This document shows positions 10,704 to 43,666 of a stretch of 64,000 nucleotides of DNA, piece after piece. The number at the start of each line of letters is the position of its first letter. Position 1 is the stretch's first letter. This DNA is from Gordonia otitidis NBRC 100426 (lineage in GTDB: Bacteria; Actinomycetota; Actinomycetes; Mycobacteriales; Mycobacteriaceae): assembly GCF_000248075.1 (NCBI RefSeq), contig NZ_BAFB01000132.1, forward strand, positions 1 through 64,000. Direction: 5' to 3'. The notes under the pieces are model-generated. The model made no database searches. It saw only the letters and a list, made by a program, of their open reading frames with translations, and was not told the DNA's origin. Position numbers and translations under genes: made by a program.

Positions 10704-10765
10704 TCATCAGCTGGCGTTCACATACCCCCGCGAGACGCGGCATCACCCGAGGAGGAACCGGCACG

Positions 10766-14846: not shown

Positions 14847-15109
14847 CGGTTCTCTCCTTCGTGACCGGACTCGTCGGTCAGTTCACGAATCCACGACCCG
14901 ACGACCGGGTCGGCGGCCATGCTGACCAGGTCGGCCCTGTGTGCGCCTGCGGCACGCCAGCGTTCGATCAGCGACATGAGACGGACCGAATCCAAGCCGA
15001 CATCGAGAACGTTTGTCTCGTCGGTGATTTCGCTCTCCTGCACGCCGAGGATGCCCGCGATGTCCGCGATGATCCGTTCTCGGGTGAGTACCGTGTTCGT
15101 GGTGGCCAT
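14843..15109 (-). CDS. Free-standing aryl carrier protein (ArCP)
   Basis: This is an 88-residue phosphopantetheine carrier. VLDVGLDSVRLMSLIERW contains the attachment Ser41 in GLDSVR, the form seen in the ArCP domain of EntB and VibB rather than in peptidyl carriers (GGxS). The isochorismatase of this cluster lacks such a domain, so this protein should receive 2,3-dihydroxybenzoate from the aryl-AMP ligase and hand it to the NRPS condensation domains. The ATG at 15109 follows GAGAGAGGA. It is the first gene of an operon with the halogenase (4-base overlap) and antiporter, and divergent from the NRPS operon over a region with iron-box-like repeats. Confidence 0.92.
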   Translation of the reverse strand: MATTNTVLTRERIIADIAGILGVQESEITDETNVLDVGLDSVRLMSLIERWRAAGAHRADLVSMAADPVVGSWIRELTDESGHEGENR

Positions 15110-18200: not shown

Positions 18201-18349
18201 CCGCACTCGCCACCGTCGCACGACGTCGCGCGTCTTCCGACCCGCTCGACCGGTCGCGGGCACCGCGCAATGCCGTCGAGAGCGCAACCACCGCTATGGG
18301 GATCGACGAGGACGAACTCTCTGAACTGATGCAGGAGGATCTGCTGTGA
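15296..18349 (+). CDS. NRPS 1: C(aryl)-A(Gly)-T
   Basis: A 1017-residue single-module synthetase. The C domain (about 1-420) resembles EntF's, which takes an aryl group from an ArCP: TSAQQGLWFAHR at the start, HHIVLDA (127-133, last Gly of HHxxxDG replaced by Ala), and HARYRGEDIVRDARR before GPTVNVKPFG. The A domain (about 435-900; [18 protein letters not shown] from 601) gives the code D-I-L-Q-L-G-M-I-W-K, nine of ten with the known glycine code DILQLGLIWK. The T domain has GGDSI with Ser940. So it should join dihydroxybenzoyl (or its halogenated form) to glycine. ATG 15296 and ATG 15302 are both possible starts. The stop overlaps NRPS 2 (GTGA) after AGGAGG, so the two are co-translated. Confidence 0.93.
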   Translation: MLMRATSAQQGLWFAHRVAPSPDVFTIGQLIDFDGQPDLVRLTAAVHAALDEADGLRSRFTERNGSVIVSLGDAIDVPVRELGGDPDAIDAYAHSAVRVPIDPAAGPCAAIEILVAGDRIALLVVAHHIVLDAYGLGLLVRRVGRLYSDPRDDKRLGSVADLPREPDVGTDAIFWERELDGVHGALTLGSVPRSHRVAADTHSVSIAVPGAGALAMSPERLVAAVAAFCARTTGTDDVVIGFPMMNRFGSPTANVACTTVNVVPLRVAVSPAATADDLAADAADGIRRIAPHARYRGEDIVRDARRRGVDGVVGPTVNVKPFGSTISFGSLDATVRSLRRGPVVDLSITALDLGSGSRDHTDLELTLDADTALYSRADVTRIAKSLASFVAALLDEPTRPVGALRLDDDVQNTPPSGTSAPIDPTPLDVRIAAAPSDAVAVRHGDDVVDYRELNRRADELAGRLGSIGTEAIVAIALPRGVDLIVALLAVMRSGAAFLPLDPGFPADRNAAAIADASPVAVLEQGDDGISLRRLDGRSDTAVSGTDNRDGAAYLIYTSGSTGTPKGVVIPRRALANFTDHMIGDLGLGPGRAVLAVTTISFDIAILETLVPLAAGACVVLASNDDVHDPARLAALVTRHRPDVIQATPSLWSAFLEAGHGPSLAAVDVLVGGEQLPTDVARGLASHARSVRNMYGPTETTIWSTTAWVDDADDITVGTPIANTGVRVLDATLHQVGHGHVGEMYLSGAGVARGYRNRPDLTATRFVADPFSDGARMYRTGDLARVRPDGRVECLGRTDHQVKVRGFRVELGDIETALTALSGVSGAVVSSVDGRLVAYVTADSSCTEVDLAQSTWRRDLAAVLPDYMVPSALVVLDAFPLTPNGKIDRRALPAPDYAAYAARSRPPSSPAERDLAGAFAAVLGLPAVGAEDDFFALGGDSIVAVRVVSAAAQAGWEITPLQVFDHPTVAALATVARRRASSDPLDRSRAPRNAVESATTAMGIDEDELSELMQEDLL

Positions 18350-21300
18350 CCGCGGCGCTCGAGGATGTTCTGCCCCTCACCGGTCTGCAGGAAGCGATCG
18401 TCTACCGGTCGACGTCGCCGCGAGTGCAGGGCGACGTCGACCCCTACCTGATCCTCGCCGATCTCGCGCTCGACATGACACCCGGCGACACGGTCGACGT
18501 CGAGCGACTGCGCCAGGCGATTTCCGCGGTCGTCGCGCGACATGCCATGCTGCGGACCTCCTTCACCAGGCGTCGGAGCGGCGAACCCGTCGCACGGGTA
18601 CACACGGACGTGGAGATCGAGCTCCCAGTGGTCGACATCGCCACCGTCGACGGCGGGCTCGTCGGATTCCGCGACCGTGCCCGAGCCGACGGCATCGCGT
18701 TGAATACGCCTCCCCCGCTACGGTTCACACTCCTCACGGAAGACGACGGTCCGCACCGGCTCTTCGTCGTCGCGCATCATGTCGCGCTCGACGGCTGGTC
18801 GCTGCATCTGATGCTCAGCGAGATCGTGCGGACCTATCGCGGAGACGCACTGCCGCCGGTGCGCGCGATCAGCGAGTACTCACGCTGGCTTGCCGACCGC
18901 GGGCGCGAGGTCGCACCGTGGGTCGAGGCTCTCGACGGTGTCGAAGCATCGACGACCGTCGACATCGTCGGACCGCCCATCCCCGCGACCCCGTTGCGCA
19001 GACGTCTCGACGCCGAGCTGTCCACATCGCTCCGGTCATTGGCCGCAGGCTGCACCGCAACGCTCAACACCGTGGTCCAGCTGGCATGGGCGCTCGTCCT
19101 CGCCGACTCGAACGACTCCGACGACGTCGTGTTCGGAACGGTGGTGTCCGGTCGTGACCCGTCGGTGCCCGGTGTGGACGAGATGATCGGCATGCTCGTC
19201 AACACCATCCCGGTCCGCGTACGCATCGACCCGACGGAGACCGTCGGCCGCGCTCTGACCCGGCTGCAGCGCGAGCAACTCGCCCTGCTGGCCGGCCACC
19301 ACGTCCCGCTCGCCGACATCACCTCCGCGGTCGGCATCGACGGGCTGATCACCTCACTGGTCGTGTTCGAGAGCTTCCCGCGCGGCGAGGTACGTCCCCG
19401 CATCGAGGACGACAACGACTTCGCCGCAACACTTCTCGTCGAGGACGATCCCGAGATCGGACTCGTTCTCGAACGTCGCGGCGCCGATGCACGACTGCTC
19501 GACGACGCCGTCGCGTGGCTCGAGGTGCTCGCGTCGTCCCGCGACATCCCACTCGGACGGTTATCCGTCTCGTCGTGGTCTGAGCCGCTACCGGCGCCGC
19601 AGTCCGTGCCCTACGTCCCGGTGGGCGAGCAGATCTCGGCGGCGGCACGCCGATCGCCACGGCGTACGGCCCTGATCGCGGGCGAGCGCAGCGTCGGCTA
19701 CCGCGAACTCGATGCCATGGCGGGCCGGTTGGCCCACGTGCTCTCCGCGCGCGGTGTCGGCACCGAATCCGTTGTCGCCGTCGCACTGCCACGCGGCGTC
19801 GACATGGTCGTCGCGCTTCTCGCCGGTGTGCGACTCGGCGCGGTCGTCATGCCGATCGATCCCTCCTATCCCGAGCGTCGTATCCGATTCATGCTCGACG
19901 ACGCCGCACCCGACATCGTGCTCGACGACGAGGAATACGCCCGGCTCCGCACGGCAGCGCTCGACGCGCCGATCTCCGAACCCGCAGCACCGCATCCTGA
20001 GTCAGCCGCGTACCTCATCTACACGTCGGGGTCGACCGGCGTCCCGAAGGGCGTCGTAGGGACCGCAGCGGCACTGGCGAACCGCATCGCGTGGGCCGCC
20101 CGACGCTGGGACGGTTCGGTCGTGCTCGCCAAGAGCGCCATCGCCTTCATCGACGGCACCACCGAGATCCTCGGCGCGCTGGCGGCGGGCGCGACCGTCG
20201 TCGTCGCCGACGACGATGCCGCCCGCGATGCATCCGCGCTCATCGATCTCGCCGCCCGCCACAGCGTCGACCAGATCACGGCGGTGCCCTCTCTCGCGCG
20301 GGCGATGGTCGACGTCGCCGCCGCGGGCGAGGCATGCTCGATCGGCCGCTGGATCGTCTCCGGTGAGCCACTGCCCGCCACCACCGCAACCCGACTCGTC
20401 TCGACCGCTGACACCGTGATCAATTCTTACGGCTCCTCGGAGGTCGCCGGGGACGTCACGACCGAGACGATCACGAAGAGCGCCGGCCCCATCACCGTGG
20501 GCGCGCCAGTACCCGGCGCTGATGTCGTGGTGCTCGACCGTCACCTGCACCCCGTGTCGGCCGGTCGCCCCGGCGAGGTCTACGTGACCGGCGTTCAACT
20601 CGCACGCGGTTACCACGGGCACTCCGATTGGACGGCGACCAGATTCGTCGCCAACCCCGATGGCACCGGCGGTCGCATGTACCGCACCGGTGATCGCGGG
20701 ATCATCGGCGCCGACGGAGCGCTGCGCCTCCTCGGGCGGTCCGACTCACAGGTCAAGATCCGCGGCGTACGGGTCGAGCTGGGTGAGGTCGAACAGGCAC
20801 TTCTCGCCCTCGACGGCGTCGACGACGCCGCCGTGACGGTCGGTCACGACCACGACGGCACAACCCGGCTCGATGCGTACGTCACGGGAGACCTGGCACC
20901 CGACACGCTGTCCACCGAGTTGTTCGAGTCGGTATCTGCGGCGATGGTCCCGGCTACCTGGACCCGACTCGCCGCCCTCCCACGCACACCCGGCGGAAAG
21001 ATCGACCGCACGGCGTTGCCCGAACCACGGGTGTCGCGGACGGCTTCGCGGCGCGAGCCGACCACCGATCTCGAGAAGCTCGTCGTCGACACCGTGGCAG
21101 ATGTGCTCGGGATCGACACCCCCGGCCTGGACGACAGCTTCTTCGAGGTGGGCGGCAACTCGCTGTCGGCAACCCGCGTTCTCACACGGCTGCGGGTGGC
21201 CACGGGCCGTGTCGTTCCCGTCGCGGACGTCTTCGCGCACCCCGTACTGGCAGAGCTTGCGGCGTTGTTCGCCGACACGGGAGCCTCGATCGAGAACGAC

Positions 21301-24300
21301 ATGACCGACCGCACCCCCTCGGTGCCGCGTCCGGAACGCGTACCCCTGTCGCCCGCGCAGCGTCGACTCGCGTTCCAGAACGGTGTCGGCGACGCCGCCT
21401 ACACGATCCCCTTCGCGGTCAGATTCGACGGCGCACTCGATCTCGCACGACTGAGCTGCGCACTCGATGGCATCGTGGCACGTCACGAGGTACTGCGCAC
21501 GCGGATCGTCGACGACACGCAACACGTCGATCCGGTGGAGGATGCGAGAATTCAGATCACCGAACACGCCATCGCGCCGACGCAACTGGATGTGACGATC
21601 GCCGATCTGATCGGCCGCCCGTTCCACCTGGCGGACGACCTTCCACTGCGCGCCGACCTCCTGCGCACCGCCGCGGATTGCGCCGTCCTGCTGCTCACGG
21701 TGCACCACATCGCCGCGGACGAATGGTCGGCGGGCACACTCTTCGACGAACTCGCCGCCGGATACAACGGCGTCGACGTGCAGGCACCCGACGTCCAGTA
21801 CGCCGACCACACGGTGGCCGAACTCGCCCGCCTCGGCAGCACCGACGATCCGGACTCCCTGTCGTCACGTCAGCTCGACTACTGGCGCCGACAACTCTCT
21901 GGCGCTCCGGCCGAACTCGGGCTGCCCTACGACCGGCCGAGGCCGCTCGACCCGGATCCGTGCGGCGGTCAGGTCGAGATCGTCGTCGGCGCAGAGATTC
22001 TCGACGGACTACGTGCTGCGGTCCGTGCGCTCGACGCCACCGTGTTCATGGGCGCACATGCCGCCGTCGCGCTCGCACTCAACGCCTCGGGAGCGGGCAG
22101 GGACATCGTGGTCGGAACCCCGGCCGCCGGGCGCTCGTCGGCAGCGGCCCACTCGCTCATCGGCATGTTCGTCAACACACTCGCGCTACGGACGGACCTC
22201 TCCGGGAATCCGACGCTCGTCGAAGTGCTCGGCCGCGTGCGCGAGACGGATGTCGCCGCACTGGCACACCAGGACGTGCCGTTCGACGAGATCGTCACCG
22301 CTCTCTCGCCTGAGCGCTCGCTCACCCGGCACCCGGTCTTCCAGACGATGGTGCAGTATCGAGATCCCATCGTGGCGCCCACTTTCGACGGCCTGGACGC
22401 CGAACCGGTCTTCCCACGGTCGGCGACCGCGAAATTCGACCTGACCTTCGAGTTCGTCGAACTCCCCGAGTCGGCCGGGATCCGGCTGCGCGTCGAATAC
22501 GCTGCCGCACTCTTCGACGAGCAGACCGTGATGGACCTCGCCGAGCGGGTCCACGACGTCCTGCGTGCGATGGTGCAAGCCCCCACACGACACCTCGCGC
22601 AGCTACGACTCGGCCCGACGGCCGCGCTGCCCGTCCTCGACGCTCCCACTCACTCCACCGATCCGGAATCCGGCAGGAGCACCCTGGTCGACGTGTTCGC
22701 CGCCACGGCGGACAGGTTCGCCGACCGTGCGGCGGTCACCGCGGGTTCGACCACACTCTCCTACCGCGAGTTGGACGCACGGAGCGCGGCCATCGCGTCA
22801 CAGCTGCACCGTGACGGTGTCCGACGGGGCGACCTCGTCGCGCTTGTCCTCGACCGGTCAGCCGACCTCGTGGCCGCGATCATCGGCGTGTTGCGTGCAG
22901 GGGCTGCCTACGTTCCGATCGACCCCGCCTACCCGCAGGAGCGGATCGCGACCACCCTCGCCGACGCCGATCCCGCGATCGTGGTCGACGCCGATTATCT
23001 CGACGGTGTCGCTCCATCCGACAGGAATGTCCCGGCCCGCGACAGCGAGATCGTCACCCCGGCGATCGGGACGGCCGATCCCGCATACGTGATCTTCACC
23101 TCCGGCTCCACCGGCAGGCCCAAGGGTGTCACCGTCACACACGGCAACGTCCTCGCGCTCCTCGACGCCACCGCCGACCTGTTCGACGTCGACGAGCGGG
23201 ACGTGTGGACGCTGTTCCACTCGTACGCATTCGATTTCTCCGTCTGGGAGCTGTGGGGTCCACTGTCCACCGGAGCTCGCATCGTCGTACCCGACCGCGC
23301 CACGACGCGTTCGCCTGCCGACTTCGCGGCCCTCATCGAGTCCGAGGCAGTCTCGGTGCTCAACCAGACGCCGTCGGCGTTCTTCGCGCTCGATGCCACC
23401 GACACGGAGAAGGCTGATCGCGATCTCCGCTCGGTGCGCTACGTGATCTTCGGCGGAGAGTCGCTCGACCTTCCGCGACTGGCCGGGTTCGCCCACCGCT
23501 ATCCGGACACGCGGTTGGTGAACATGTACGGGATCACCGAAATCACAGTTCACGCAACCTATCTCGCTATCAGCGAGGAAACCGTCACCGGGACGGTGGG
23601 CAGCGACGTCGGAGCCCTGTTGCCCGGGTTCACCGGTGATCTGCTCGACGACCACCTGCGCCCCGTGCCGGTGGGCGCGGTCGGCGAACTCTACCTCGCG
23701 GGCCCCCAGGTTGCGGCGGGCTATTCCGGCCGACCCGCGCTGCACACGACTCGTTTCGTCGCCGACCCGGCTGGCGACGGCTCGGTGCTCTACCGCACCG
23801 GCGACCTGTTCCGCCGGACCAGGCAGGGCGCATTGATCTATCTCGGCCGCGCCGACACCCAGATCAAGATCCGCGGTTTCCGTATCGAACTCGGCGAGAT
23901 CCGGGCTGCGCTCACGGCGCTGCCGGGTGTCCGCGACGCAGCCGTCATCACGCGGCCCGGGCCCACGGGCGCCGACCGGATTCTGGGTTATGCGGTCACG
24001 ACGGAACTCGATGGCCAGGCGCTCCGCTCGCAACTGAGCGACGTGCTTCCCGAACACGAAGTGCCCTCGGTGGTCACCGTGCTCGACTCGATTCCGCTGA
24101 CGGTCAACGGAAAGGTGGACAGCCGTTCATTACCGGAGCCCGAGGTGGTCTCCGGCGCCAGTCGGACACCCGAGTCGCCCCTCGAGGTGGCACTTGCCGA
24201 CATCTTCGCCGACACGTTGGGGCTATCAGATCCGCCCGGCGTCGACGACGACTTCTTCGCGCTCGGTGGCGACAGTATCGTCTCGACGACTTTGGTCAAC

Positions 24301-25824
24301 CGCGCACGGCGAGAGGGCATCCGGTTCACGCCACGCGACGTGTTCGGTCACCGCACCGTCGCCGGACTCGCCACGGTCGCCGAGTGGATCGTCGATACCC
24401 CGCCGGTCGCCGCAGCAGAGCACTCAGCGGGGGCACTGAACTCGACGAACACCCGGCCGACCCCGATACCACTCCTGCCCGTCGTGCACCGGCTCCGCGA
24501 GATCGGGGGAACGATCGACCGATTCAACCAGGCACTCGTCGTCGACACCCCACCGGAGCTCGACGTCGACACCCTCCGTGTCATCCTCACGGCCCTCGTG
24601 GATTCCCATGAGGCACTGCGCAGTTCGTTGCAGGTCGTCGCGGGCGTGCTCTGGAGTATGCAGAGCACGCCGCCCGGCTCCGTCGACGTGGACGATGTCG
24701 TGCAGGTCGTCCCCGTCGACCGGCCGGTCTTCGACGATGACGATGCGCTCTCGGCCGTCGTCACAGCCGAATCGTCCGCGGCCACACGCCGATTGGCACC
24801 CACGTCCGGCAGGATGATCGCCGCGACGTGGTTGACGCCCAGTTCACCGGAGGATTCGGTGGCTGGACGACTCATCCTCGTCATCCACCACCTCGCGGTC
24901 GACGGTGTTTCGCGGCGAATCTTGCTCGACGACCTGCATGCACTGTGGGACGCCACGCGCAACGGAGGCGACACGCTTCGGCTCGCGACGCCGACGCCCC
25001 TGCATCGATTCACGACGGCGGTCACCGAGCGAGCAGCCGATCCGGCGCTTCTCGACGAGGCGACGCACTGGGCGCAGGTGTTGGCGCCCGGCGGCGAGCT
25101 CGTACCGGGCCGACCGCCCGTAACCGGCACAGTCGCCGGCCAGCGTCGCCACGTCGTCACCCTGTCCGCGAGCACCTCCGCGGCACTGGTGTCGGACCTG
25201 CCCGCGCGACGCGGGGTGGGGATCACATCGCTGCTCATCGGAGCCCTACGCGTCGCCGCGACCCGCGTCCTCGGCACCGCAGATCTCATCATCGACACCG
25301 AACGTCACGGTCGTGACGCGCACGAATTCGGTATCGACGCCGACCTGTCCCACACCGTCGGGTGGTTCACCACCATCGCACCGATCCGTCTGGACCCAAC
25401 CGACGACATCGACACCGCCATCCACGCCGCAGAGGAGGCGTGGACGACGATGCCGTCCGCGGGCGCAGGATTCGGCATGCTCCGCTACCTCAATCCGCAG
25501 TTGTCCGCAGCACTCGCCGCCATGTCCCGACCGTCGGTGCTGCTGAACTACCTGGGCCGCTTCACCGTCGGCGGAGGCTCGCCATGGCAACCGTCCGCAG
25601 AATCGACAGCTCTCGCCGCAGACCCTGATCCGGGCCTCGGCGTCGCATATCCACTCGAGATCGACATCGTCTGTCGTGACGAGACGACGGGCCCCGTCGT
25701 CGCCGCGACACTGCGCTACCTCCCCGACCACCTCGACGACGCCGCCGTGCGCGCACTCGCCGACGAACTGTGCGCGACGCTCGACTCGCTCTCGGCGTCG
25801 GCAGAATCCGGAGCCGATCAGTGA
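18346..25824 (+). CDS. NRPS 2: C-A(beta-Ala-like)-T-C-A(Thr)-T-E
   Basis: A 2492-residue two-module synthetase. Module 1: C with HHVALDG (144-150); A with FIDGTTE (601-607), in which the usual Asp235 is shifted by one; code I-D-T-T-I-S-S-G-D-K, resembling the published beta-alanine pattern VDxVISxGDK; T with GGNSL (Ser939). Module 2: C with HHIAADE (1120-1126); A with FDFSVWE (from 1629), code D-F-W-N-I-G-M-V-H-K, an exact threonine code; T with GGDSI (Ser1977). A C-terminal epimerisation domain (about 2015-2480) has intact HHLAVDG (2181-2187), ERHGRD and NYLGRF, so D-Thr or D-allo-Thr is expected. The GTG start overlaps the NRPS 1 stop, and the stop overlaps NRPS 3. No methylation, cyclisation or thioesterase domain is present. 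Confidence 0.92.
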
Positions 25825-28800
25825 CCTCGACCCCGCCGGACACATCCGCCGACGACGCGGGATACGCGACCGCCGACACCGACGGTCCGCACGCCACGCT
25901 GCCGACGCTCGCCGGACAGCGCGACATCTACCTGTCGATGCAGGCGTCGCCGGATCCGACCCTGTACATCACGGGCCTCTACGTCGAGGTCGATGCCGGC
26001 ATCGACGTCGAGCGTCTCCGGACGTCGCTGCTGGCGGTCCTCGACTCCGCGGAGGCCATGCGTGCGGTGTTCGTCGAGGAGGCGGGCCAGGTACGCCAGA
26101 GAATACTGCCGACAGCGGATTTCGACGTCCCGTTCCGCGACATCCCCGCTGCCGAGGTGGACCAGTGGATGACCGCCGAGTTGTCGCGGCCGATGGACGT
26201 CACGGTTGGCCCGCTCACCGAGTGCACGATCATCAGGAGCCTGGCACCGGACGGTCGTGTCGAGGCCGTCCTGGCACTCCTCAAGGTCCACCACCTCGTG
26301 TGCGACGGAATGGGTCTCGGATTCTTCACCCAGGCGGTGCAAGAGCACTACGACAGCACACGCATCCCCGCTGACGGAACCGACCCGGCCGACCGGTCGG
26401 GTGCCGAGACATCGACGGGCACCAGGGACTGGAGGTTGCGGCCGGTCCTCGACGCCGAAGCACAGTACCGCGAGGGACCCGATTTCGCCGCTGACGCCGA
26501 CTACTGGCTCGAGCGAATGGGTGACCGACCGCAACCCGTGCGTCTGCTCGACGACGATCTCGCTCCCGGCCGCGGAGTCGTGGCCGCGCGCTTCGACATC
26601 CCACTCGACGATCTCGAAGCACTACGCGCCGTGGCGCGGGGTGCGGGGGTGCGACCCACCGTGCTGTTGATCGCAGCCGTCGCAGCGTTCGCACACGTGC
26701 GGACCGGGCAGACCGACCTTGTCCTCGCACTTCCGGTGACCGGACGCCTCGACCGCAGCGCTCGCACGACCCCGTCGATGGTGACGAGTGTGCTACCGCT
26801 GCGCGTCGACGCCGGTCCGCGCGACAACCTCGCCGACCTCGCCGCGCGAACCGAACGTGCGGTGTTCGCGGTGGTCGCCCACAGTCGTTTCCGCGGCGAG
26901 GATCTCGGTCGCGCACTCGCCGCGCAGGAGAGTCGGGCCGGCGGGCCGGCTGCGTCCGTTCAGCCTTACCGCATGTTCGGTCTCGGCGTGAACGTCATGG
27001 CCAACACCTCCCGGCAGACCATCGGCGGACAACCGCTCGCCCTGCACGCGCTCGCCTCGGGACCCGTGTCCGACATCGAGATCCAGATCCAGGTGCGGCG
27101 GCGAGAACGCCCGGCCGAGGTGGTCATCCGCACGGTCGACGACGCACGCGACGAGGCCCGACTCGTCGGTGCGGAGTTCGCCGTGTTCCTGCACTCACTC
27201 GCCATGAATCCGGGCGCACGGCTGCGCGCCTTCTCGCCCGACGGTCGAATCGACGCTCCCGCGCCGTCCGCGGGCCCGGTGGTGGCCGACGACGGTGTCG
27301 GCGCGGTACCACTCACACCGGCTGTAGCACGGTTGCGCGAACGGCAGATCGACCCGGAGTCGCTACCGCCGCGCGTCGTGCGAGCACGAGCCGCCTCGTC
27401 GGTGTCCGTCGATGATGTCCGTGAGATCGCCGCAGCACTGGTCGCCAAGCACCCGGCGCTGCGCACGACACTGAACCGCCCGGCACCCATCCTGTGGACG
27501 ATGACGACAGGCGCCGTCGGCGACGTGGTGCTTCCCGTCACCGAGGCCGACGTCGAGCCGACCGACCCGTCGGCACCCGGAGTGACACTTGTGCCCGCGA
27601 CCGGCGACGTGATCGCCGCATTCGACCCCGTGCTCGTCGACCCGACGTCCGCGGAGATCCTGCGCGCGGATCTACAGACCGCACTCGACGACGCGGCTGG
27701 GGCACGGCACATCGAGTTCGACGTTCCGAGCGCTGGACTCCGCACGCTGGCAACGGCATTGGCCGCTCAGGCAGCCGATGTCGCCGGACTGCCGCACTAT
27801 CTCGAGACCCTGGCGCCAGGCGCTACCCTCCCGAGGGTCGGGGATGAATCCGCATCATCGCCATGCGATCGCGCGACAGTCACCTCACGTATCGACGTCG
27901 ACGATCCGAGTATCCCGGCCCCGACGCGACAGGCCCTGGTACTCGCCGTCGCGCGTGCCACCGCTGATGTGTACGGATCCGATGCACCCACCCACCTGCT
28001 CATCGACGTCGCGCTCGACCTACGCAACGCAGAGGGGGCGGGTACGGTCGGCCCCCTGCAGGCACTCGAACCGCTACGTGTCGATCTGGCGAACCCGTCG
28101 GTCCCCGACACGCGCGCGAACACCACCGGTCCGTGCCTCGACGTCGTGCGCTACCTGTCACCGCAGGTGAGTGCTGCGCTGACGGCCGCCGCCACCGCGG
28201 GTCAGATCGTCGAGCCCGACGTGCTCGTCGGGGATCACGGGTTGCCGACCGCACATCCCGTGACGATCCGTCTGTCCCGCAACGCTTCCCGGGGCTGGTC
28301 GGTGATCGCCGAGGCCGATCCCCGTGTGGTCGCGCACGCCGAGGTTCTCACACGCGCACTCGCGGACGCGGTGGTTGCCGACGCCGATCGACGCCTCGTC
28401 ACCGTCGATGAGTCGACGCTGGAGCGACTCACCGGTGTCCACGGGGTGATCGACGACATCTGGCCGCTGACCCCGCTGCAGGAGGGACTGTTCTTCCAGT
28501 CGCAGGTCGATGCGGGTGACGACATCTACACCGCCCAGTTCTGGCTCGATTTCGGCCACCGTATCGACAAGGACTCGCTACGGGCGGCCGCTCGGTCGTT
28601 GCTGCATGAGAATCCCGAGCTACGTGCCGTGTTCGTCGAGATCGACGGCGCCCCGGTGCAACTCATCATCCGCGACGTCGAGCCCGTGGTCGACGTCGTC
28701 GATCTCATCGACACCCCCGCCGACCTCGTCGACTTCGAACTCGACGCCGTGCTCGATGCCGACCGCACCGCGGACATACCGATCGACACGGCCCCGCTGT

Positions 28801-31800
28801 GGCGCATGACGTTGATCCACCTGCCGGGCGACCGCGACCGAATCGTCGTCAATCGTCGATTCCTGTTGTGGGACGGCTGGTCTGGTGGACTTGTCGTATC
28901 GCGCCTACTCGCCCACCTCGAAGGCGTCGCCGCCACGACACCCGAAGCGTCACTCCGCGACTATCTGGCCTGGATTGCAGCAACCTCCGACGCCGAGGCG
29001 CTCGACGCGTGGCGGGCACATCTCGACGGCTACACCGAACCGGCACTCGTCGCGCCGCGGGCCGTCAATGTGGCGCCACGAGCACCGCGTCGGATCGAGG
29101 TCGACCTGGGCGTCGACGTGTCGGATGCGCTGCGGGCAGACGCGCGGGCCGCCGGCGTCACGCTAAACACGGTCGTCTCCGGCGCGCTCACGCTGACCCT
29201 GTCACGCGTTCTCGGTGTCACCGATGTCGCGTTCGGCTCCACGGTGGCGGGCAGGCCGACCGAGGTCGCGGGCCTCGACACGGTGATCGGGCTGTTCCTC
29301 AACACCGTGCCCGTACGAACCGCGCTCCGACCCGACGAGACGGTACGAGAATTCTTGCGCCGCAGTCAGGACGCGCGCGTCGCGTTGATGGCCTACGACC
29401 ACATCGGGCTGGCCAGACTGCAACAGGAAACCGGCCATCCGGTGCTGTTCGATGTGCTCTACGTGTTGCAGAACTTCCGCACCGAGGACGAGGAGCGCGA
29501 ACAGTCGCGCCTGCACGACGTCATCGGGGAGGGCAGCCTCGATCACACCCATTACCCGCTCGCGCTGGTCGTGACGCCCGGCCGGTCGATCCGATTCCGT
29601 CTCGAATACCGTGACGATCTCATCGATCATCGGCACGCGAACGGCTTCGTCACGAGGTTCAGAAACGCGCTCGAATCGATCGGACGCGGCCTCGACGACT
29701 CGGTGGCCGCCCTCGATCTGACCCTCGACTCGGACGCGCCGTTGATCGGCCCGAGCCACCCACTGCCCGACACCACCGTCTCAGGACTACTCGCCGAACG
29801 CGCGGCCACCATCCCCGACGCAGTCGCCCTGGTCTTCGACGACCGTCGACTCACCTACGCGCAACTCGACGCCGAGGTCGACCGCGTCGCCCATATTATC
29901 GCCGACCACGGAGTTGGCGCGGAAACCATTGTCGCACTGGCTATTCCCCGATCCATCGAGACCGTGGTCGCGTTGTTCGCGATTCTGCGGACCGGCGGCG
30001 CCTACCTGCCACTGGAACTCGACCACCCCGACGCCCGGCTCCATCAGATCATTGCCGACGCCTCTCCCGTGTTGATCCTCACCCACAGCCGGGTGTCTAC
30101 GCGGTTCGCCACTCTCGCCCTACCGACACTGCACATCGACGCACTTCCCCACCCCGACTCCCCGACCTGGGTCGCCCCGTCGGTCGATCCCGCGCAGCCC
30201 GCCTACGTGATCTACACATCGGGCTCCACCGGCAAGCCGAAGGGCGTCATCACGCCCTACCGCGGCTTGACGAACATGCAGCTCAACCACCGCGAGAAGG
30301 TGTTCGAGCCCGCGATCGCCCTCGCCCGAGAAGCAGGGGTGCGAGGCCGGCTCCGGATCGCGCACACCGTGTCCTTCGCGTTCGACATGTCCTGGGAAGA
30401 ACTGCTGTGGCTCGTCGAGGGCCACGAGGTCCACATCGCCGACGAGCAACTGCGAGCCGACTCCGCCGCGCTCGTCGACTACTGCGCGACGCACCGCATC
30501 GACGTCATCAACGTCACGCCGACCTACGCGGCGCAACTGGTCGCCGACGGACTGCTCGACGGCGCGCACGTCCCCCCGCTCGTCCTGCTCGGTGGTGAGG
30601 CGGTGCCCGAACCGGTGTGGACGAGACTGCGCCAACATCCGCACACGCTGGGCTACAACCTGTACGGGCCGACCGAGTACACGATCAACACCCTCGGCGT
30701 CGGCACCGACGAGACACGGACATCGTCCGTCGGCACGCCGATCTGGAACACCACAGCACATCTCCTCGACCCCTGGCTGCGTCCGGTGCCCGCGGGAGTG
30801 CAGGGCGAGCTGTACATCAGCGGCGCGGGACTCGCCCGCGGTTACCTCGGACGTCCCGATCTGACGGCCGAGCGGTTCGTCGCCGATCCGTTCTCCTACG
30901 GCGGCCGGCTGTACCGCACCGGCGACGCGATGAGGATCAGACCCGACGGCAATCTCGACTTCCTCGGGCGCACCGACGACCAGGTCAAGGTGCGGGGCCA
31001 TCGTGTCGAACTCGCCGAGATCGACGCAGCACTCACCTCTCTCGACGAGATCGCGGCGTCGGCCGTCGTCGCCGGCTCCGACCCAGCGACACCCGACGTC
31101 AAACGTCTTGTCGCCTATGTCATCCCGGCCGATCCGGCGCGTGAGCTCGACTACCAGGAGGTGCGCAGGCAGCTCGGCGCATCGCTGCCCGACTACATGG
31201 TCCCGACGCTGTTCGCCACCGTGCAGGGATTCCCGATGACCGTCAACGGCAAGCTCGACGTCAAGGCGCTGCCCGCGCCAGAGGTCGGCGGTACGCGTCG
31301 CGCGCCCCGCACCGAGCTCGAGCGACGCCTGTGCGAGATCTTCGCCGACGTGCTCGGACTACCCGACACCGACGACGGATGTCCCGTGGGCATCGACGAC
31401 GACTTCTTCGCTCTCGGTGGCCACTCCATGGCGGCCATGCGGCTGGTCTCCACCCTGCGCGCCGACCTGGGCGCCGAGCTGGCCATCCGTGATCTGTTCG
31501 AGGCCAGGACTCCCGCCGACATCGCACTGCGCGCAGAGCTGACCGGTTCGAGCAGCGACATCCCGACCGGCGAGCGACCCGAGCACATTCCGCTCTCACC
31601 GGCGCAGGAGCGGCTCTGGGTGCTCTACGAGCTCGACCCCGACGACATCTCCTACCACTACGGCCACGTGGTGCGGCTGCACGACGAGATCGACGCCGCC
31701 GCACTGTCCGGGGCGGTCCGCGACGTGCTGATGCGTCACGAGAGTCTGCGCACCGTGTTCGACACCAGCCGCGACGGGGAGGTGTACCAACGCGTACTCG

Positions 31801-34800
31801 GTCCGGCCGACGTGCCCGACGTCGTCGAGATCCACACCCTCGACACAGCGACCGTCGCTGACACCGGACCGCAAGCGAGCGAGCTCGCCCGCGAATTCCT
31901 CACCCGCCCTTTCGATCTGCGATCCGCTCCGCCCATCCGGGTGCAACTCGTGCGGTTGCCCGCCGACAACGAGGCGTCGGACACCGGGGCACCGGATACG
32001 GCCCTGCTGACCATCGCGATGCACCACATCGCCACCGACGAGTGGTCGGACCGGCCGCTGCTCACCGATCTCACCGCGGCGTACGCGGCCAGGGTAGCCG
32101 GCGCCACCCCCGACTTCGCCGCACTACCCGTCCAGTACCCGGACTACGCGCTGTGGCAACGTGACCGCGTCGCCACGCGTCGCGTGGACCAGCTCCAGTT
32201 CTGGGCCGAGGCACTAGCCGACCTGCCCGACGAGTTGGCCCTCCCCCGGGATCGGCCACGACGACCGTCGGGTCTCGGTCCGGCGGCCACCGAGACGGCC
32301 GTCGTCGACGCGGACACCCGCGCCGCGCTGGCACAACTCGCCACGGCGCACGCCGCGAGCATGTTCATGGTCACCCAGGCCGCCGTGGCGCTACTGCTCC
32401 ACCGCTCGGGTGCAGGCGACGACATCCCGCTCGGGTCACCGGTCTCGGGACGCAACGACCCCGCGCTCGACGACCTCGTCGGCTTCTTCGTCGACACCCA
32501 GGTGCTGCGGACCGACGTCAGTGGCCACCCCACCTTCGGTGAGCTCGTCGATCGCGTGCGCGCCGTCGACCTGGCCGCATTCGACAACCAGGACATCCCG
32601 TTCCAGCAGATCGTCGAACACTGCGCGCCGCCGCGTGTTCCCGGACGTAACCCGCTCTTCCAGGTCAGTGTCGGATACCTGCCACTCGGTGCGGTGCCCG
32701 ACCGATTCCTCGGCATACCGGCGACTTTCGAGCACTTGACGTCGGCGTCGGCGAAGTTCGATCTCGCGTTCACCGTTGTCGACAACACCGAATCCGGTGA
32801 GTTGACCGTCGCGCTCGAGTACGCCACCGAGATGTTCGACGCGACGACGGCCCACGACCTGCTCGCCCGCCTCGTGCGCATTCTGCGGACCGTCGCCACC
32901 ACACCAGACGTCGTCGTCGATGCCGTCGAGCTCGTCGGCCCCGACGATGTCGAGTCGATCCGTGCCGGAGAGCACGGCGGGCATGCACTGTCTGACGACG
33001 AGACGACGGTGGCCGACCTCTTCGCCGCGACCACACGTGCCCATTCCACTCAGATCGCGTTGCGCGACACCGACGGTCACGCCGTCACCTACGCGCAACT
33101 CGACGCTGCAACCGGGCAACTGGCCGCGTGGCTCGTCGACTCCGGGGTGCAACCCGGGGACGTCGTGGCCGTCGTGATGTCGCGCAGTATGGCTCAGCTC
33201 GCCGCCCTGCACGCGGTCCTTCGTGCCGGAGCGGCATATCTGCCGATCGACACGGATGTTCCCACCGAGCGCGTCGCAACGATCCTCGACGACGCCCGCC
33301 ACGCGGCCGTCGTCTGCGACCCCACAGCGGTCGACGCCTTCGCCGACGGCGCCATGCCCGTGGTCGGCGTCGACGACACCCTCTTCGACAGGGCCCTCGT
33401 CGGTGCCGCCGGGCGGCGCCCGCTCGAGGACACCACGGCCGTCGGCGGACGGGTGCACCCCGATCAGCCGGCGTACGTCGTCTACACCTCGGGGTCCACC
33501 GGCAGGCCCAAGGGTGTTGTGGTCACGCATCGCAGTGTGGTCAACGTCCTGCGTTGGCGCCTGCAGACCATGCCGGCGGGCGGCCTCGGCCCCGGTGACA
33601 CGGTACTGGCCAAGACCCCCGTCGGATTCGACGGCGCGGTCTGGGAACTGTTGCTGCCCTTCGCAGCGGGCGCAGCCGTGCTGGTCGCCGAGCCGGGTGC
33701 GCAGCGCGATCCCCGGCGGCTCGCCGAGCTCATCTCCGAGCACGAGGTGACCACGACGGTGTTCGTGCCGTCACTTCTCGAGCACTTCGTCACCTACCTG
33801 GATGTCGCGAACTCGTTGCGCCACATGATCGTCGGTGGTGAGGCGTTGCGTTCCGACCTGGTCGACGCGGTACTCGATGCCGCGCCGACGCTCGCGGTGA
33901 TCAATGCCTACGGCCCGACCGAGACCACCGTCGTCGTCACCGACCACGTCGCCACGCGTGGCTGTGACGCCACCACCTCGCCGATCGGCCGACCCATCGC
34001 CGGTGCCGACCTGCTCGTGCTCGACACCTCGCTACGCCGGGTACCCGACGGCGGGGTCGGCGAACTGTACGTGCGCGGAACACCGCTCGCACGCGGCTAT
34101 CACGCCAGGCCGGGACGCACCGCCGGTGCGTTCGTCGCCGACCCGACGGGTGAGTTCCCCGGCGGACGGGTGTACCGGACAGGCGATCTGGTCCGCCGCC
34201 GAGGCGACGACCTCGAGTACGTCGGCCGGACCGACAGTCAGGTGAAAGTGCGGGGTAATCGTGTCGAACTCGGTGAGATCGAGTCGGCTATGCGCTCCCT
34301 TCCCCAGGTCGCGGACGCGGCTGCGGCGGTCGACGCCGACCGGGTGGTCGGCTGGATCGTCGCCGCGCGCGACGAGATGACGGGTGACCCGGCGACACTG
34401 GTGGCGTCGGTGACCGAGCAGTTGTCCGCACTCCTGCCGGAGTACATGATCCCCGCGCCGCTCGCGGTGCTGGAATCCTTTCCGCTCAATCACACCGGCA
34501 AGCTGGACCGGCGTGCGCTGCCGACGCCCGGCGGCGCCGCCACGTCGGGAACCCCGCCGCGCACACGGCTCGAGACCGACCTCGCGGAGATCTTCTCGTC
34601 GGTGCTCGGCACCGACGTCGACGACGTCCACGCGAACTTCTTCGCCATCGGCGGACACTCGCTGGCGGCGATCAAACTCGTCAACCTGATCCGCGGTTCG
34701 CTCGGCTACGACGTCGGTGTGCGCACGGTGTTCGACGAACCGACGATCGCGCGACTCGCCACATCGCTCGTCGCCGACGGTGCGGGCGGCGCGGAGAGAC

Positions 34801-37800
34801 CGGACGCCACCCCGTCGCAGGTACCGCCGTTGCGGCGGCGTCCCGGTGCCGCACCCGTGCTGTCGTACGGCCAGGAGCAGATGCTCACCCTTGCCGGCGT
34901 CTCCGGACCGACGAGCACCTACAACGTGCCGCTGCTCTGGCGGCCGGGCGGACCCGCCGGCACGACGCCCATCGATCCCGAGACCATGCGCGCGGCGATC
35001 CACGACGTCGTCGCCCGCCACGAGATCCTGCGTACCCGATACCCGGACGATCGCCCGGACGTCGTCGACGATCCGGCGGTTCCGTTGCTCGTGGCCGCGA
35101 CTGCGGACGAACTGTTCGCCGACTCCGCGCACGCCTTCGATCTGGCGACCGAGATACCGATCCGGGTTGCAATGACGTCGCAGGTTGCAGTGGTGACGAT
35201 CCATCACATCGCCACCGACGAGTGGTCGGCGGCGCCGCTGCGCGCCGACCTCGACACCGCCTACCGCGCACGCAGCGCAGGGCATGCACCGAAGTGGGAC
35301 GCGCTCGAGCTCCAGTACTCCGATTTCGCTGCGTGGCAACGGGACCTACTCGCCGACGAGCGCGGCACGCGGCAGGTGCGGTTCTGGCGTGCGGCGCTCG
35401 ACGGATCGCCGGAGGAGCTCTCGCTTCCCTACGACCGACCTCGCCCCCCGCGTCCGTCCGGGCGCGGCGACGGAGTGCTCGTCGCTCTCGCCCCCGACAC
35501 CGTGCAGGCGCTCAAGACGTTGGCCGCATCGACCGGCACGTCGATGTTCATGGTGCTGCAGACCGCCGTCGCGGTGCTGCTCTCCCGCCTCGGCGCGGGC
35601 ACCGACATCCCGCTCGGCTCACCGGTCACCGTCCGCGACGATGCGCGGCTCGATCGTCTGGTCGGCTTCTTCCTCAACACGCTCGTGCTGCGCACCGACG
35701 TGTCGGGGAATCCGACGGTGAGCGAACTGCTCGCCCGCGTACGCGCAGGCAACTTGTCGGCGCTCGAGAACAAGGACGTCCCGTTCGAGCAGGTCGTCGA
35801 AGCCGTCGCGCCATCCCGGTCGGCGGCCCTCAACCCGCTGTTCCAGACGATGGTGGTCTACGTCGAGGGACGACTGCCGGACGCGTCGCCTGCCGAAGGC
35901 AGCCCAGCCGCGCCCCCGCTCCCGACGACCGCGAAGTTCGACCTCTCCTTCGACTTCACCGAGGATCCGTCCGGCGACACTCCGCGCGTGGGCGGTGTCA
36001 TCGAGTACAGCACCGACCTCTTCGATCGTGTGACCGTGGAAGCCATGGGACAGCGCCTCGTCACGGTCCTGGAATTCATGGCCGCACAACCGGATCGGGC
36101 ACTGCGCGACCTCGACATCCGCATCCCCGCCGAACACCGCGATCTGCATCGCGCAGCCGCTCCCGCGGCGACCTTCCCCGAACTGTTCGACGCCGTCGTC
36201 GCACGCGACCCCAACGCGCCTGCGCTGCGCGGTCCAGACGGCACTCGCACGTTCGGTGAACTCGACACCCGGGTGACGGCGATCGCGACGCGACTCGTGG
36301 CCGAGGGCATCGGTCCAGAAGACGTGGTGGTCGTCGCACTGCCGCGCGGGGTGCTGGCCCTCGAGGCGATCTTCTCTGTCCTCGTCGCAGGCGCCGCCTA
36401 CCTGCCGATCGAACCCGACACACCTGCCGAACGCGTGGCCGCCATGACCGCGGTCGCCCGACCGCGCCGGGTGATCGACGACGTCGCCGACCCCGTGCTC
36501 GCCGACCCCGATCCAGCCGATCCGATGCCGATCGGCGACCTGAGTTCTGCTGCAGTGCAGACGGATTCGCGACACACCGGCTCTGTGCGCTCGGTCGTCC
36601 CGAGAACCCCGTTGCGTCCGGACCATCCCGCGTATGTCATCTTCACCTCCGGCTCTACCGGCACCCCCAAGGGCGTGGTCGTACCTCATCGCGGACTCAC
36701 CAATCTGTTCGCGAGTCACCGGCGAATGCTGTACGAGCCTGCGCGTCGACGCGCCGGGCGCGAGCGCCTGCGCGTCGGGCACGCCTGGTCGCTGGCCTTC
36801 GACGCCTCGTGGCAACCCCAGTTGTGGATGCTCGACGGCCACGAGGTCTCCATCGTCGACGCCGAGACCCAGCACGACGCCCAGTCGCTCGCCGAGCAAC
36901 TACGCGCCGAGCACTGGGACTTCCTCGAGCTCACGCCGTCCCATCTGCGCCACCTCGACGGTGCCGAGGAGACGTTGAGCGCCGTCGGCTTCGGCGGGGA
37001 GGCGATCCCCGACGCCCAGTGGCAGCGTTACCGAGCCCTGCCCCGCACCGACGCCTACAACCTGTACGGGCCCACCGAGGCGACCGTCGATGCTCTCGTA
37101 GCCCGTGCGGCAGACGCCGAGCATCCCGTCGTGGGGCGCCCGGTGGACGGGGCACGGGCCTACGTACTCGACGCCGCGTTGCGTCCGGTCCCCGATGGCG
37201 TCGACGGCGAGTTGTATCTCGCGGGTGCAGGATTGGCGCGCGGCTACCTCGGTCGCGGCGACCTCACCGCCGAGCGTTTCGTCGCGGATCCGTTCACGGC
37301 CGACGGTGCCCGCATGTATCGCACGGGTGACACCGTGCGGTGGACCCGCGACGGTCAGCTCGACTACCGAGGTCGGCGCGACGACCAGGTGAAGATCCGC
37401 GGCTTCCGTGTCGAACTCGGCGAGGTCGAGGCGGCGCTCGCGGCGATCCCCGGCGTCACCTCGGCTCTCGTCGTCGCGCGGGCCGGGAGACTCGTCGGCT
37501 ACGTAGTCGTCGCTGATCTACGCAGCGAAAGCGGCGCGGGGCAGGTCGAGCCCGCAACTCTCCGCGCCAGAGTGCGGTCGCTACTGCCCGACTACATGGT
37601 TCCCGCGGTCGTCGTCATCCTCGACGCGCTGCCCACACTTCCCAACGGCAAGATCGACCGCCGCGCGCTCCCGGAGCCGGACTTCGAGCACGAGGTCAGA
37701 GCGCCGGAGACGCCGGTGCAGCGCAGTGTCTGCCGCGCGGTCGCCGATGTTCTCGCCGTGGGGATCGACCGTGTCGGTCTCGACGAGGACTTCGCCGAAC

Positions 37801-39290
37801 TCGGTGGTGACAGCATCGTCGCCATGCAGCTCGTCGCGCGACTGCGCGCCGAGGGATTCACCGTGAGCCCACGTGTCGTGATGACCACGAGGTCCCTCGC
37901 GGCGCTGGCCGATGCGCTGGAGAGCACCACTGGTACGCCGACCCTGGCGCAGGTCAGCACCGGTGAGGTCCCGGCGACACCGATCGTGCGGTGGCTTGAA
38001 GAGCTCACCGACGGCAGTGCTGAGCACATCGGCGGGTTCCATCAGTCCGTACTGCTGACGGTGCCGTCCGGTCTCGACGTCGACGCTCTCGCAGCGGCGA
38101 CAACGACGCTTGTCGCACGGCATCACATGCTGCGCGCGCGACTCGTGACCCGGTCACGCCCGTGGCGCTTCGAGATCCCCGAGTCGGCGTCGGCCGTCGA
38201 GGTGGTCCGTGAGACCGACCGCGACGTGACCGCCGTGGCACATCGCACCCGTGACCGTCTCGATCCCCGTGCGGGCCAGATGCTCGCGGCCACCTGGATC
38301 GACCACGGAGACGAATCGGGGCGCCTGTTGCTCGCGATCCATCACCTCGTCGTCGACGGGGTGTCGTGGCGAGTGCTCGTACCGGAGTTACTGGCCGCCT
38401 ACTCGCAGCTGACGAATGGCGTTGCCGCCGAGAACATCTCACTGGCGGACGTCTCGACCGACTTCGGCGCGTGGGCACGTGCGCTGGTGACGACCGACCG
38501 CAGTGCAGAACTCGACCTGTGGCGCGGTGCCGGCGCCGGTGCGGACCCGACCGCGATCTTTGTGCGTCCGCTCGACACGACGTGCGATACCCAGGGCTCC
38601 GCCGCACGTCACCGCGTCGAGGTGGACGCCGAGACCGCGCGGGCCGTTCTCGGTCCGGTGGGTGCCCGTCTCGGCGTCGGCGTCGACGACGTACTGCTCG
38701 GCGCCTTCGGAGCCGCGGTCGGCACACCGACCATCGTCGACTCCGAGGGGCACGGTCGTGTCGAGCACCTGGTAACCGGGGCCGATCTCACCGGCACTGT
38801 CGGATGGTTCACCGCGGTGCACCCGATCCGGATCGGAGACACCGACGACCCGCTCGAGCAGGCACGTCGCCTCGCTGCGCAGCGGGCTGCGATACCCGAC
38901 GAGGGCGTGGGGTACGGTCTGCTCCGGTACGGATCCGATCTCGGCGACGGTGCCGTCCGTCGTGCACAGACTGACCTACCCACTGCGGCGATCGAGTTCA
39001 ATTACGTCGGCCGGTACCGCGAATTCGCGTTCGACGGGTGGGCGATGGCGCCGGAATCGGTCGACATCGGCCCAGACGACGCGATGCCGGCCGGTTACGG
39101 GCTCATCGTCGACGTCGCCACCGTCGACGGAACGGACGGGCCGAGACTCTCGGCGACGTGGACCTATCAGCCGGGCATGATCGACGCTCACGCGGTGACA
39201 GCCCTGGCGGATCGGTGGCTGGCCGCACTCGTGAACCTGGCAGAGGTCACGACCGACAAGACGAACGGTACGACGGAAGGTGGTCGATGA
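25821..39290 (+). CDS. NRPS 3: C(aryl)-E(dead)-C(dead)-A(N5-OH-Orn)-T-C-A-T-C-A-T-E
   Basis: A 4489-residue synthetase starting at GTG 25821 (GTGA overlap). Residues about 28-465 form an EntF-like C domain with intact HHLVCDG (157-163). Residues 493-865 are an epimerisation-type domain whose HHxxxDG reads DPVLVDP (602-608). Residues 875-1310 are a C domain whose motif reads RFLLWDG (1013-1019), so both catalytic His are lost. Three modules follow. A (FDMSWEE) code D-M-E-N-L-G-L-I-N-K is an exact N5-hydroxyornithine code, T Ser1869. C (HHIATDE, 2068), A code D-G-W-V-I-G-A-V-V-K, unassigned, T Ser2947. C (HHIATDE, 3128), A code D-A-Q-E-G-G-L-V-D-K, perhaps a basic residue, T Ser3998. A final epimerisation domain has HHLVVDG (4174) and EGHGR. 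No thioesterase follows; the stop overlaps the exporter start. Confidence 0.9.
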
Positions 39291-40595: not shown

Positions 40596-40695
40596 CCGCT
40601 CAGCTGGCGAGCGACTCCCGCAACTCCTTGCGGCTCACCTCGCGTTTTTCCCGCTCAGCCAGCGAGCAACTCCCGCAACTTCTTGCGGCTCACCT
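40596..40695. repeat. 45-bp direct repeat: duplicated 3' end of the aryl-AMP ligase gene
   Basis: Bases 40596-40640 and 40651-40695 are 41/45 identical and are separated by ten bases (CGCGTTTTTC). The second copy is the true 3' end of the ligase gene (minus strand; VSRKKLRELLAG then stop). The first copy, read on the same strand, encodes VSRKELRESLAS and a stop but has no gene attached. It fills the gap between the exporter and the ligase and is most simply a remnant of a paralogous ligase or of a local duplication. Confidence 0.9.
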
Positions 40696-42960: not shown

Positions 42961-43666
42961 CCCCGGAACTCTCTCGGGGTTGCGTGCCGTCGTGACCGGC
43001 GCCGCGGGAGGTATCGGTGCCGCCGTCACCGCCGCACTGCGCAGCGACGGAGCGCTGGTCGATGCGTGGGACATTCTGGCGCGCAACGATCTTCGTACCG
43101 TAGATGTCACCGACCGAGCGGCGGTGATCGACGCGTGGCACGCAGCAAGCTCGAGCGGTCCCATCGACATCGTCGTCTCGGCGGCGGGCGTGATGTCCGA
43201 CGACTGGGACACATGCATGGCCGTCAACGCCGACGGGGTACGCAACCTGCTCGACGTCGCGATCGACGACCTGACCGGCCGAAAAAGCGGTGCCGTCGTG
43301 GTGATCTCGAGCAATGCCGGTGCCATCCCACGATCAGGATTGGCCGCGTACGCCGCATCGAAAGCCGCCGCGACGTCGTATACGCGGAGCCTTGGGTTGC
43401 GCGCCGCGCCCGACGGAGTGCGGGTCAACATCGTGTCCCCCGGCTCGACGGACACACCGATGCTTCGCGGCATGTGGTCCGACGACACAGCCCACGACCG
43501 GGTACTCGCCGGGGAACCCGAGGCCTTCCGTCTCGGAATCCCGCTGGGGCGCATCGCAACTCCCGAGGACATAGCCGCCGCCGTCGTGTTCCTGGCGTCC
43601 GACGCCGCGCGTCATATCACCATGCACGACCTGCGCGTTGACGGAGGTGCAACGTTGGACATGTGA
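42953..43666 (+). CDS. 2,3-dihydro-2,3-dihydroxybenzoate dehydrogenase (EntA/DhbA type)
   Basis: A 237-residue short-chain dehydrogenase that oxidises 2,3-dihydro-DHB to 2,3-dihydroxybenzoate with NAD+. It shows VTGAAGGIGAAV (cofactor loop), the catalytic SSNAGAIPRSGLAAYAASKAA with Tyr and Lys, and NIVSPGSTDTPM. An early DILARNDLRTVDVTD matches the family's NAD-specific segment in position. The ATG overlaps the end of the isochorismatase gene (ATGTCTGA), so the last two DHB enzymes are made together. A 57-base gap leads to the siderophore-binding lipoprotein on the same strand. Confidence 0.93.
   Translation: MSDPGTLSGLRAVVTGAAGGIGAAVTAALRSDGALVDAWDILARNDLRTVDVTDRAAVIDAWHAASSSGPIDIVVSAAGVMSDDWDTCMAVNADGVRNLLDVAIDDLTGRKSGAVVVISSNAGAIPRSGLAAYAASKAAATSYTRSLGLRAAPDGVRVNIVSPGSTDTPMLRGMWSDDTAHDRVLAGEPEAFRLGIPLGRIATPEDIAAAVVFLASDAARHITMHDLRVDGGATLDM

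Follow-up and report, generated by a model that had tools for sequence, protein, structure and literature searches.

Which of the three domains standing in front of a hydroxyornithine (hOrn) adenylation domain is still at work, when only the first of them keeps an intact HHxxxDG motif, is the question raised by NRPS 3, a nonribosomal peptide synthetase (NRPS) of Gordonia otitidis NBRC 100426 encoded on the stretch of 64,000 nucleotides that was analysed (contig NZ_BAFB01000132.1, positions 1 to 64,000; hereafter the window). The protein (4489 aa; 25821..39290) starts with a GTG overlapping the stop codon of NRPS 2 and reads C1-E*-C2*-A4-T4-C-A5-T-C-A6-T-E, where C, A, T and E are condensation, adenylation, carrier and epimerisation domains. 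The gene and the following domains lie on the forward strand: the starter-type condensation domain C1 (25896..27254; HHLVCDG intact at 26289-26309), the epimerisation domain E*, dead by its motifs (27273..28406; DPVLVDP at 27624-27644, with ERHGR and VGWFT also degraded), the D-C-L-type condensation domain C2* of the hOrn class (28422..29756; RFLLWDG at 28857-28877, with Phe for the second His), A4 with the FDMSWEE...YGPTEYTIN signature of N5-hydroxyornithine modules (29757..31220), and T4, the carrier domain of the hOrn module (31323..31526). The initial annotation had placed HHLVCDG, DPVLVDP and RFLLWDG at residues 157-163, 602-608 and 1013-1019, exactly where they were found when counted from the start at 25821, and had remarked on an unusual layout without A or T between the first and the second C; none was found there, and the layout is indeed unusual. 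It had further pointed to the hOrn step, rightly, and had taken both E* and C2* for dead, which was borne out for E* and not supported for C2*. As read from its sequence, C2* is not decayed, and is a member of a class of C domains that lack the second His and are tied to hOrn modules.

C2* matched the Pfam family PF00668 with 182.2 bits over positions 3-450 of 456, and its best match in the PDB was PvdL, in the second of the two C stretches of that protein. Profile searches with C2* were run against 397 genomes of the order and 394 genomes of the class (the samples overlap), and 59 loci were kept (L054-L112, query included), each viewed over about 500 residues upstream in the frame containing WDGWS. 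All 59 carried WDGWS together with F, V or L at the position of the second His. The next A domain was visible in 57 of them, reading DMEN..LIN in 56 and DSDN..LIN in one; code positions 299 and 301, obtained by a regular-expression reading, were unreliable and were not used. DMENLGLINK is the code name that goes with this pattern. In order to avoid circularity, the converse search was carried out with A4 (E <= 1e-150, 345 genomes) and gave 44 matches, 43 of which were examined, a second copy in genome G571 being the one left out. The A4-type domain was preceded by a His-less C domain in 40 of the 43 (30, plus L158-L161 and L165, plus L074, L078, L080, L095 and L105; in L105 and L165 the counted C domain and the A match lie in different open frames) and by a canonical HHIVMDG in three (L162-L164). 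Across the fetched synthetases, with L045 read by eye, 25 of 28 hOrn modules lacked the second His, and none of the 75 modules of other kinds did. L045 has the motif DREFILWDG and belongs to the class; L117, L118 and L127 carry HHIAWDD at other modules, with the second His present. Loss of this His is thus the rule at hOrn modules in the sampled actinobacterial families, and in long stretches the His-less domain is the sole C there.

The RFLLWDG reading was found to be in register, as the alignment of 60 domain rows (several duplicates included) was gap-free across the motif, the second His being replaced by F, V or L, the residue just ahead of it being R, Q, E or H, and the D being preceded mostly by W. 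A reading of the class motif as HHxxxxDG with a one-residue insertion was rejected on the same gap-free alignment and on the distance from P-L-x-R to DG, which is 25-27 in most domains of both kinds. A tie between the loss of the His and the C1-E* layout was also rejected, since other genera and families have the R[Q/E] motif too, downstream of E domains that are intact. Nor were the motifs misaligned around an intact His lying nearby, a possibility that the initial annotation had raised; no HHxxxD was present between the C1 and C2* motifs in any of the 15 proteins (described below) that share the layout. An AlphaFold model of C2*, built on a seven-sequence alignment, had a mean pLDDT (predicted local distance difference test) score of 68.2 with values below 50 at residues 149-156 in the motif, and was not used for the active site. 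In the open-access literature no description of a His-less hOrn class was found, and the larger point of this locus is this class rather than the layout itself.

To see what such a domain works with, we recorded the domain directly upstream of the class member in the 59 loci: an intact E in 32, T in 15, a dead E in 7, the Gordonia-type or G445 arrangement in 4 and a truncated one in 1. An E was scored as intact where HHxxxD[G/A/S] was found, and nine E-like domains without HH and three unscored cases were regrouped by eye; E or dead E was directly ahead in 39 of the 59, the Gordonia type not being counted. In L052, L113-L118, L121, L123, L124, L126 and L127, T or A-T-E precedes the class member and the module contains no second C. 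L158-L161 (3651-3698 aa, A-T-E-C-A-T-E-C-A-T), called coelichelin-like from architecture only, have three modules but only two C domains, of which the one with YHLLLWDG is the sole C before hOrn. The same domain order at 3644-3666 aa is given for coelichelin synthetases in an excerpt of PMC5932044, and excerpts of PMC9854754 state that deletion of the cch cluster prevents coelichelin formation and describe coelichelin with two threonines, unlike the structure assumed here. The third C domain of the coelichelin synthetase (CchH type; SYHLLLWDGWSR) is like C2* in standing directly before an hOrn-type A domain, in following T-E and in lacking the second His; unlike C2*, it has no C1 or dead E ahead of it, the E that precedes it keeps HHLAVD, and Tyr-His instead of Arg-Arg stands before the replaced His. 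Because a class member is the only C before hOrn in related synthetases, including the coelichelin-synthetase-like ones, C2* is very probably a working condensation domain here, and a domain of this type very probably makes a bond in the known coelichelin pathway.

The rate of change points the same way as regards constraint. Over four close pairs, the ratio of nonsynonymous to synonymous substitution (dN/dS) was 0.08-0.14 for C2*, 0.09-0.12 for A4 and 0.12-0.18 for C1, and among the six domains for which it was computed only A4 was as slow as C2*; C2* is under purifying selection. These values also bear on an alternative in which C1, with the sole intact motif, couples the NRPS 2 peptide to hOrn, and E* and C2* act only as inert spacers or platforms, one of the options in the initial annotation. 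In its favour, C1 lies at the N-terminus, the site at which the terminal E of NRPS 2 would dock, and all 15 proteins keep the HHxxxDG of C1 and have lost that of E*. However, C1 groups with starter C domains and not with D-C-L domains, an intact E or T and not another C stands directly ahead in 47 of the 59 His-less loci, and none of the long stretches shows a second C for the module. Moreover, C2* was slower to change than C1 in three close pairs and level with it in the remaining one (L012-L014), and we consider bond formation by C1 unlikely.

Fifteen proteins shared the layout C1-E*-C2*-A-T, and they came from Gordonia, from Williamsia and from a genome of another genus (G445). With residues 1-1316 as the query, a single scan of named genomes returned nine relatives, eight from Gordonia and one from Williamsia faeni; in the genus sample, a strong E* match was obtained in 12 of 59 genomes, and more diverged copies of the layout turned up in three others of that genus (G014, G019 and G048) and in G445. 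The motif states were kept throughout, C1 being intact in 15 of 15, the HHxxxDG of E* lost in 15 of 15 and C2* reading [N/D/S]R[R/Q/E]-F-x-x-WDGWS in 15 of 15, with 805-891 residues between the C1 and C2* motifs. The search for homologous N-termini that had been proposed in the initial annotation returned conserved substitutions, and chance or sequencing error does not account for motif states that 14 other proteins share. The count of 15 omits L016, in which the long frame carrying C2* begins downstream of C1, and L120, in which the contig starts within the E* region. In L016 (Gordonia polyisoprenivorans NBRC 16320), the protein match spans residues 2-1316, which indicates a frame break or an assembly error near C1. 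The layout is a real feature, specific to a lineage and in part a relic.

That E* belongs to the epimerisation type and can be aligned with the E of NRPS 2 was confirmed by profile-profile comparison (hhalign), in which E* matched the E domains of NRPS 2 with 99.7% probability and C2* with 0.5%. Its profile matches in the PDB were bacitracin synthase 3 (the best) and tyrocidine synthases 1 and 2, and an 11-residue E* motif lies at residues 777-787. A misread C domain was accordingly rejected, the profile tying E* to E domains and not to C2*. The HHxxxDG of E* has turned into forms like DPVLVDP, or HPLIVDP and HPLLVDG in two remoter proteins; ERHGR has turned into forms like ALDLR, with the glutamate gone in 15 of 15, and VGWFT into forms like VGPLQ. 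Judged by these motifs, E* is catalytically dead. Its dN/dS in the four close pairs was 0.19-0.26, compared with 0.13-0.15 for the intact E3 of NRPS 2 and 0.15-0.19 for the intact E6 at the end of NRPS 3, and the constraint on E* is weaker yet still purifying. NRPS 2 (18346..25824, forward strand; C-A-T-C-A-T-E) ends in an E at 24451-25800 with an intact HHLAVDG, and the neighbouring NRPS ends in an E with HHxxxD in 14 of 15 cases. In Gordonia, E* may have become redundant given this E at the end of NRPS 2, and may be kept as a folded spacer or interface before C2*. The notion of a structural spacer, offered in the initial annotation for both domains, is the best guess for E* only. A dead E (HPVLLDA and similar, with the ERHGR glutamate lost) also precedes the hOrn-class C in seven loci of another family (L061, L063, L064, L066, L068, L069 and L073), and this recurrence means that a single accident does not explain it. 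L125, the only dead-E locus of that family seen at length, has its E after T and no C1-like domain adjacent to it.

Where C1 came from was addressed by comparison with starter domains. Its best PDB matches were CDA synthetase I, 7c1k (which we take to be RzmA), ObiF1 and EntF, all starter or aryl-accepting C domains; these keep HHxxxDG as C1 does, and C1 differs in being followed by E*-C2* and not by an A-T of its own. In a domain tree built with FastTree, with local supports only, the C1 rows formed one group (87) that joined the N-terminal starters of L052, L125 and L126 (93), and E* nested among E domains (100); C1 thus sits with N-terminal starter C domains whose HHxxxDG is intact, and not with D-C-L domains. 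Related genera show C1-A-T-E-C-A-T-E-C2-A(hOrn)-T in L113-L116 (C1 cut by the stretch end in L113 and L114), and L052, L125 and L126 show C(start)-A-T-(E)-C-A-T-(E)-C2-A-T. The E* profile scored best against the E of L052 directly before the hOrn-class C, and second best against the E of the window's own NRPS 2; eight of its ten best E domains directly precede an hOrn-class C, and the other two end proteins of the NRPS 2 type. C1 is only 29% identical over 398 columns to the starter-type C of NRPS 1 (15296..18349, forward strand; C-A-T). Orthology of C1 with the N-terminal starter C of the related synthetases is supported by these comparisons, and C1 and E* resemble what remains on either side of a lost A-T-(E)-C-A-T, an arrangement that a fusion would produce as well. 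C1 would then descend from the starter C at the N-terminus of an ancestral synthetase reading C(start)-A-T-(E)-C-A-T-E-C2-A(hOrn)-T and would now adjoin E*, and NRPS 1 and NRPS 2 would now provide the steps of the missing A-T-(E)-C-A-T.

Such an origin would also suit a reading in which C1 and E* are both functionless leftovers and C2* alone does the job, as in the related synthetases, where C2-type domains occur without an adjoining C1; the resemblance of C1 and E* to the two ends of the lost segment was counted in its favour. The two domains have, however, fared differently, C1 having kept HHxxxDG in 15 of 15 with the dN/dS given above for the four pairs, and E* having lost its motifs in 15 of 15. 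For this reason C1 is probably still active as an acylating domain, and we hold it to be quite unlikely that both are mere remnants.

Taken as a whole, the locus is best explained, and with reasonable if not strong probability, by a remodelled hOrn module in which a working His-less C2* is combined with E* as a dead spacer and C1 as a retained starter domain. C2* would accept the peptide, with its D-residue, from the terminal T-E of NRPS 2 and attach it to hOrn on T4, the nucleophile being the side-chain N5-hydroxylamine rather than the alpha-amine and the bond an iron-binding hydroxamate. At neutral pH a hydroxylamine is not protonated and is a strong nucleophile, which would make a catalytic His unnecessary. 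In exochelin MS, erythrochelin and coelichelin, unacylated hydroxyornithine is linked into the chain via the side-chain N-hydroxyl nitrogen, which gives a hydroxamate. C1 might add a second dihydroxybenzoyl group, from the free-standing carrier protein of the cluster, onto the remaining alpha-amine of hOrn; with a single free carrier protein in the cluster, addition of a second aryl group to hOrn by C1 is the simplest guess. As for the initial suggestion of a new role at the hOrn step, it came near to the best explanation for C2*, with the correction that the role belongs to a class also found without the layout. In its full form, the proposal would be of an undescribed class that makes the hydroxamate directly via the N5-hydroxylamine and that, in Gordonia and its kin, is coupled to C1 across a dead E, with hOrn acylated on both nitrogens in a branched bis-catecholate/hydroxamate; we put this forward as a tentative idea that could well prove wrong.

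Several points weigh against this account. The three loci L162-L164 (family f31), C-A-T units at the end of their proteins, combine an hOrn-type A domain with a canonical FHHIVMDGWSG, which means that loss of the His is not obligatory; they are predicted to use the alpha-amine and to form the hydroxamate by lactam closure. Many class members keep a His one position earlier (THHLVLWDG), and some His chemistry may persist in them. The loci are related, and counts such as 59 of 59 and 40 of 43 describe the class and not independent events. According to a review (PMC11546977), some ordinary C domains can do without the second His, so a new nucleophile does not have to follow from its loss; the role of this His in HHxxxDG is still debated (PMC11546977, PMC8097023). 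The choice of the side chain as nucleophile leans on the structures of three other siderophores, exochelin MS, erythrochelin and coelichelin. To act on T4, C1 would have two domains to bridge. Finally, the difference in dN/dS between E* and the intact E6 is small, and in G445 (L045) the terminal E of the NRPS 2 equivalent is likewise degraded (HEFAADD); with no intact E before C1-E*-C2* there, redundancy fails as the reason for the loss of E* in that genome.

The class matters in that a natural group of domains without the second His, found at one defined substrate, offers a direct test of the role of that His. If the reading of C2* as an hOrn-acylating domain is true, membership of the class predicts acylation at the side-chain hydroxylamine rather than at the alpha-amine. 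For genome mining, a His-less C ahead of an hOrn A domain would point to a hydroxamate within the chain, and a canonical C to one of lactam or formyl type; judging C domains by HHxxxDG alone would call working hOrn C domains inactive. On the side of the A domain, a passage of PMC4786211 links Glu239 to hydroxylated ornithine, as in the exochelin synthetase. L121, whose exochelin identity is taken from module order and A signatures, resembles the exochelin type (FxbC) in having two hOrn-type modules, each with a His-less C (TYHFLLFDG and SYHFLLLDG), the second behind an E; it differs from NRPS 3 in that no C1-E* layout was present in the stretch seen. In L122 (G351), a carrier with no A domain appears to lie between a pair of C domains (C-T-C) immediately upstream of the hOrn module.

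The genes around NRPS 3 were then examined for the likely product. An ornithine/lysine N-monooxygenase (9204..10544, reverse strand) is the likely source of hydroxyornithine. The catechol pathway is represented by an isochorismate synthase (10649..12019, forward strand) and presumably by an isochorismatase (42256-42960) and a short-chain dehydrogenase (42953-43666), which together occupy 42256..43666 on the forward strand; a 2,3-dihydroxybenzoate-AMP ligase-like gene (40655..42232, reverse strand) scored under the curated cut-off of its family. A free-standing aryl-carrier-like protein (VGLDSVRLMS; 14843..15109, reverse strand) is overlapped by the gene of a flavin-dependent halogenase with a WIWYIP motif (13320..14846, reverse strand), and a siderophore-interacting protein and an EntS-like exporter are also encoded. 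From this content (N-monooxygenase, catechol genes, ligase-like gene, carrier, halogenase and transport genes) the product is probably a mixed catechol-hydroxamate siderophore. No acyl- or formyltransferase was found among the annotated cluster genes, no P450 among the annotated genes, and no thioesterase domain in NRPS 3; a TauD-type hydroxylase, the partner of interface domains, was likewise absent from the annotated genes, which are only part of the window genes.

The halogenase was present in 11 of the 12 Gordonia genomes with a strong E* match versus 1 of the 47 others, by which it belongs to this pathway, and the overlap of the carrier and halogenase genes (13320-15109, reverse strand) suggests a halogenated carrier-bound dihydroxybenzoate and a chlorinated catechol siderophore, as chlorocatechelin likewise is. 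Halogenase copies in the 59 Gordonia genomes were 82-93% identical to that of the window; G014, G019 and G048, which are among the 47, have a diverged layout and no halogenase.

The same distribution could be read as a sign that E* and/or C2* serve to recruit a tailoring enzyme acting in trans. In siderophore synthetases, interface domains are recruitment platforms of this kind. Domains of the C/E family with altered motifs do act so, for example the glycopeptide X domain with its HRxxxDD, which is described in PMC11546977 as having a C/E fold, an altered motif and no textbook catalysis, in these respects like E* and C2*. The HRxxxDD of the X domain was not encountered here, the motifs being RFLLWDG and DPVLVDP, and C2* sits in a normal C-A-T module. 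E* occurs without the halogenase in G051, and G048 and G019 carry diverged C1-E*-C2* without it. The halogenase gene overlaps that of the free carrier, so that this carrier is probably the substrate carrier, and the C2-type motif follows the hOrn A domain also in families where the halogenase was not looked for. A halogenase platform made of E* or C2* was accordingly disfavoured by the distribution across Gordonia, and recruitment in general appears very unlikely to be what these domains are for.

Downstream of the hOrn module, two C domains (32022-32042 and 35202-35222) read HHIATDE, with DE for DG, and HHxxxDE at C domains after the hOrn module recurs in most relatives; a passage of PMC8097023 deals with the HHxxxDE variant in fuscachelin C3. 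The signature of A6 (36798-36818) is FDASWQP...LVD, identical in the last A domain seen of L045 and L122, and the last A domain seen in L125 shares FDASWQP with it; the substrate of A6 decides the number of hydroxamates in the product. Contigs C198, C268 and C248 of the same genome contain further frames rich in condensation and carrier domains (up to 4793 aa on C198 and 2682 aa on C268), which resemble NRPS loci.

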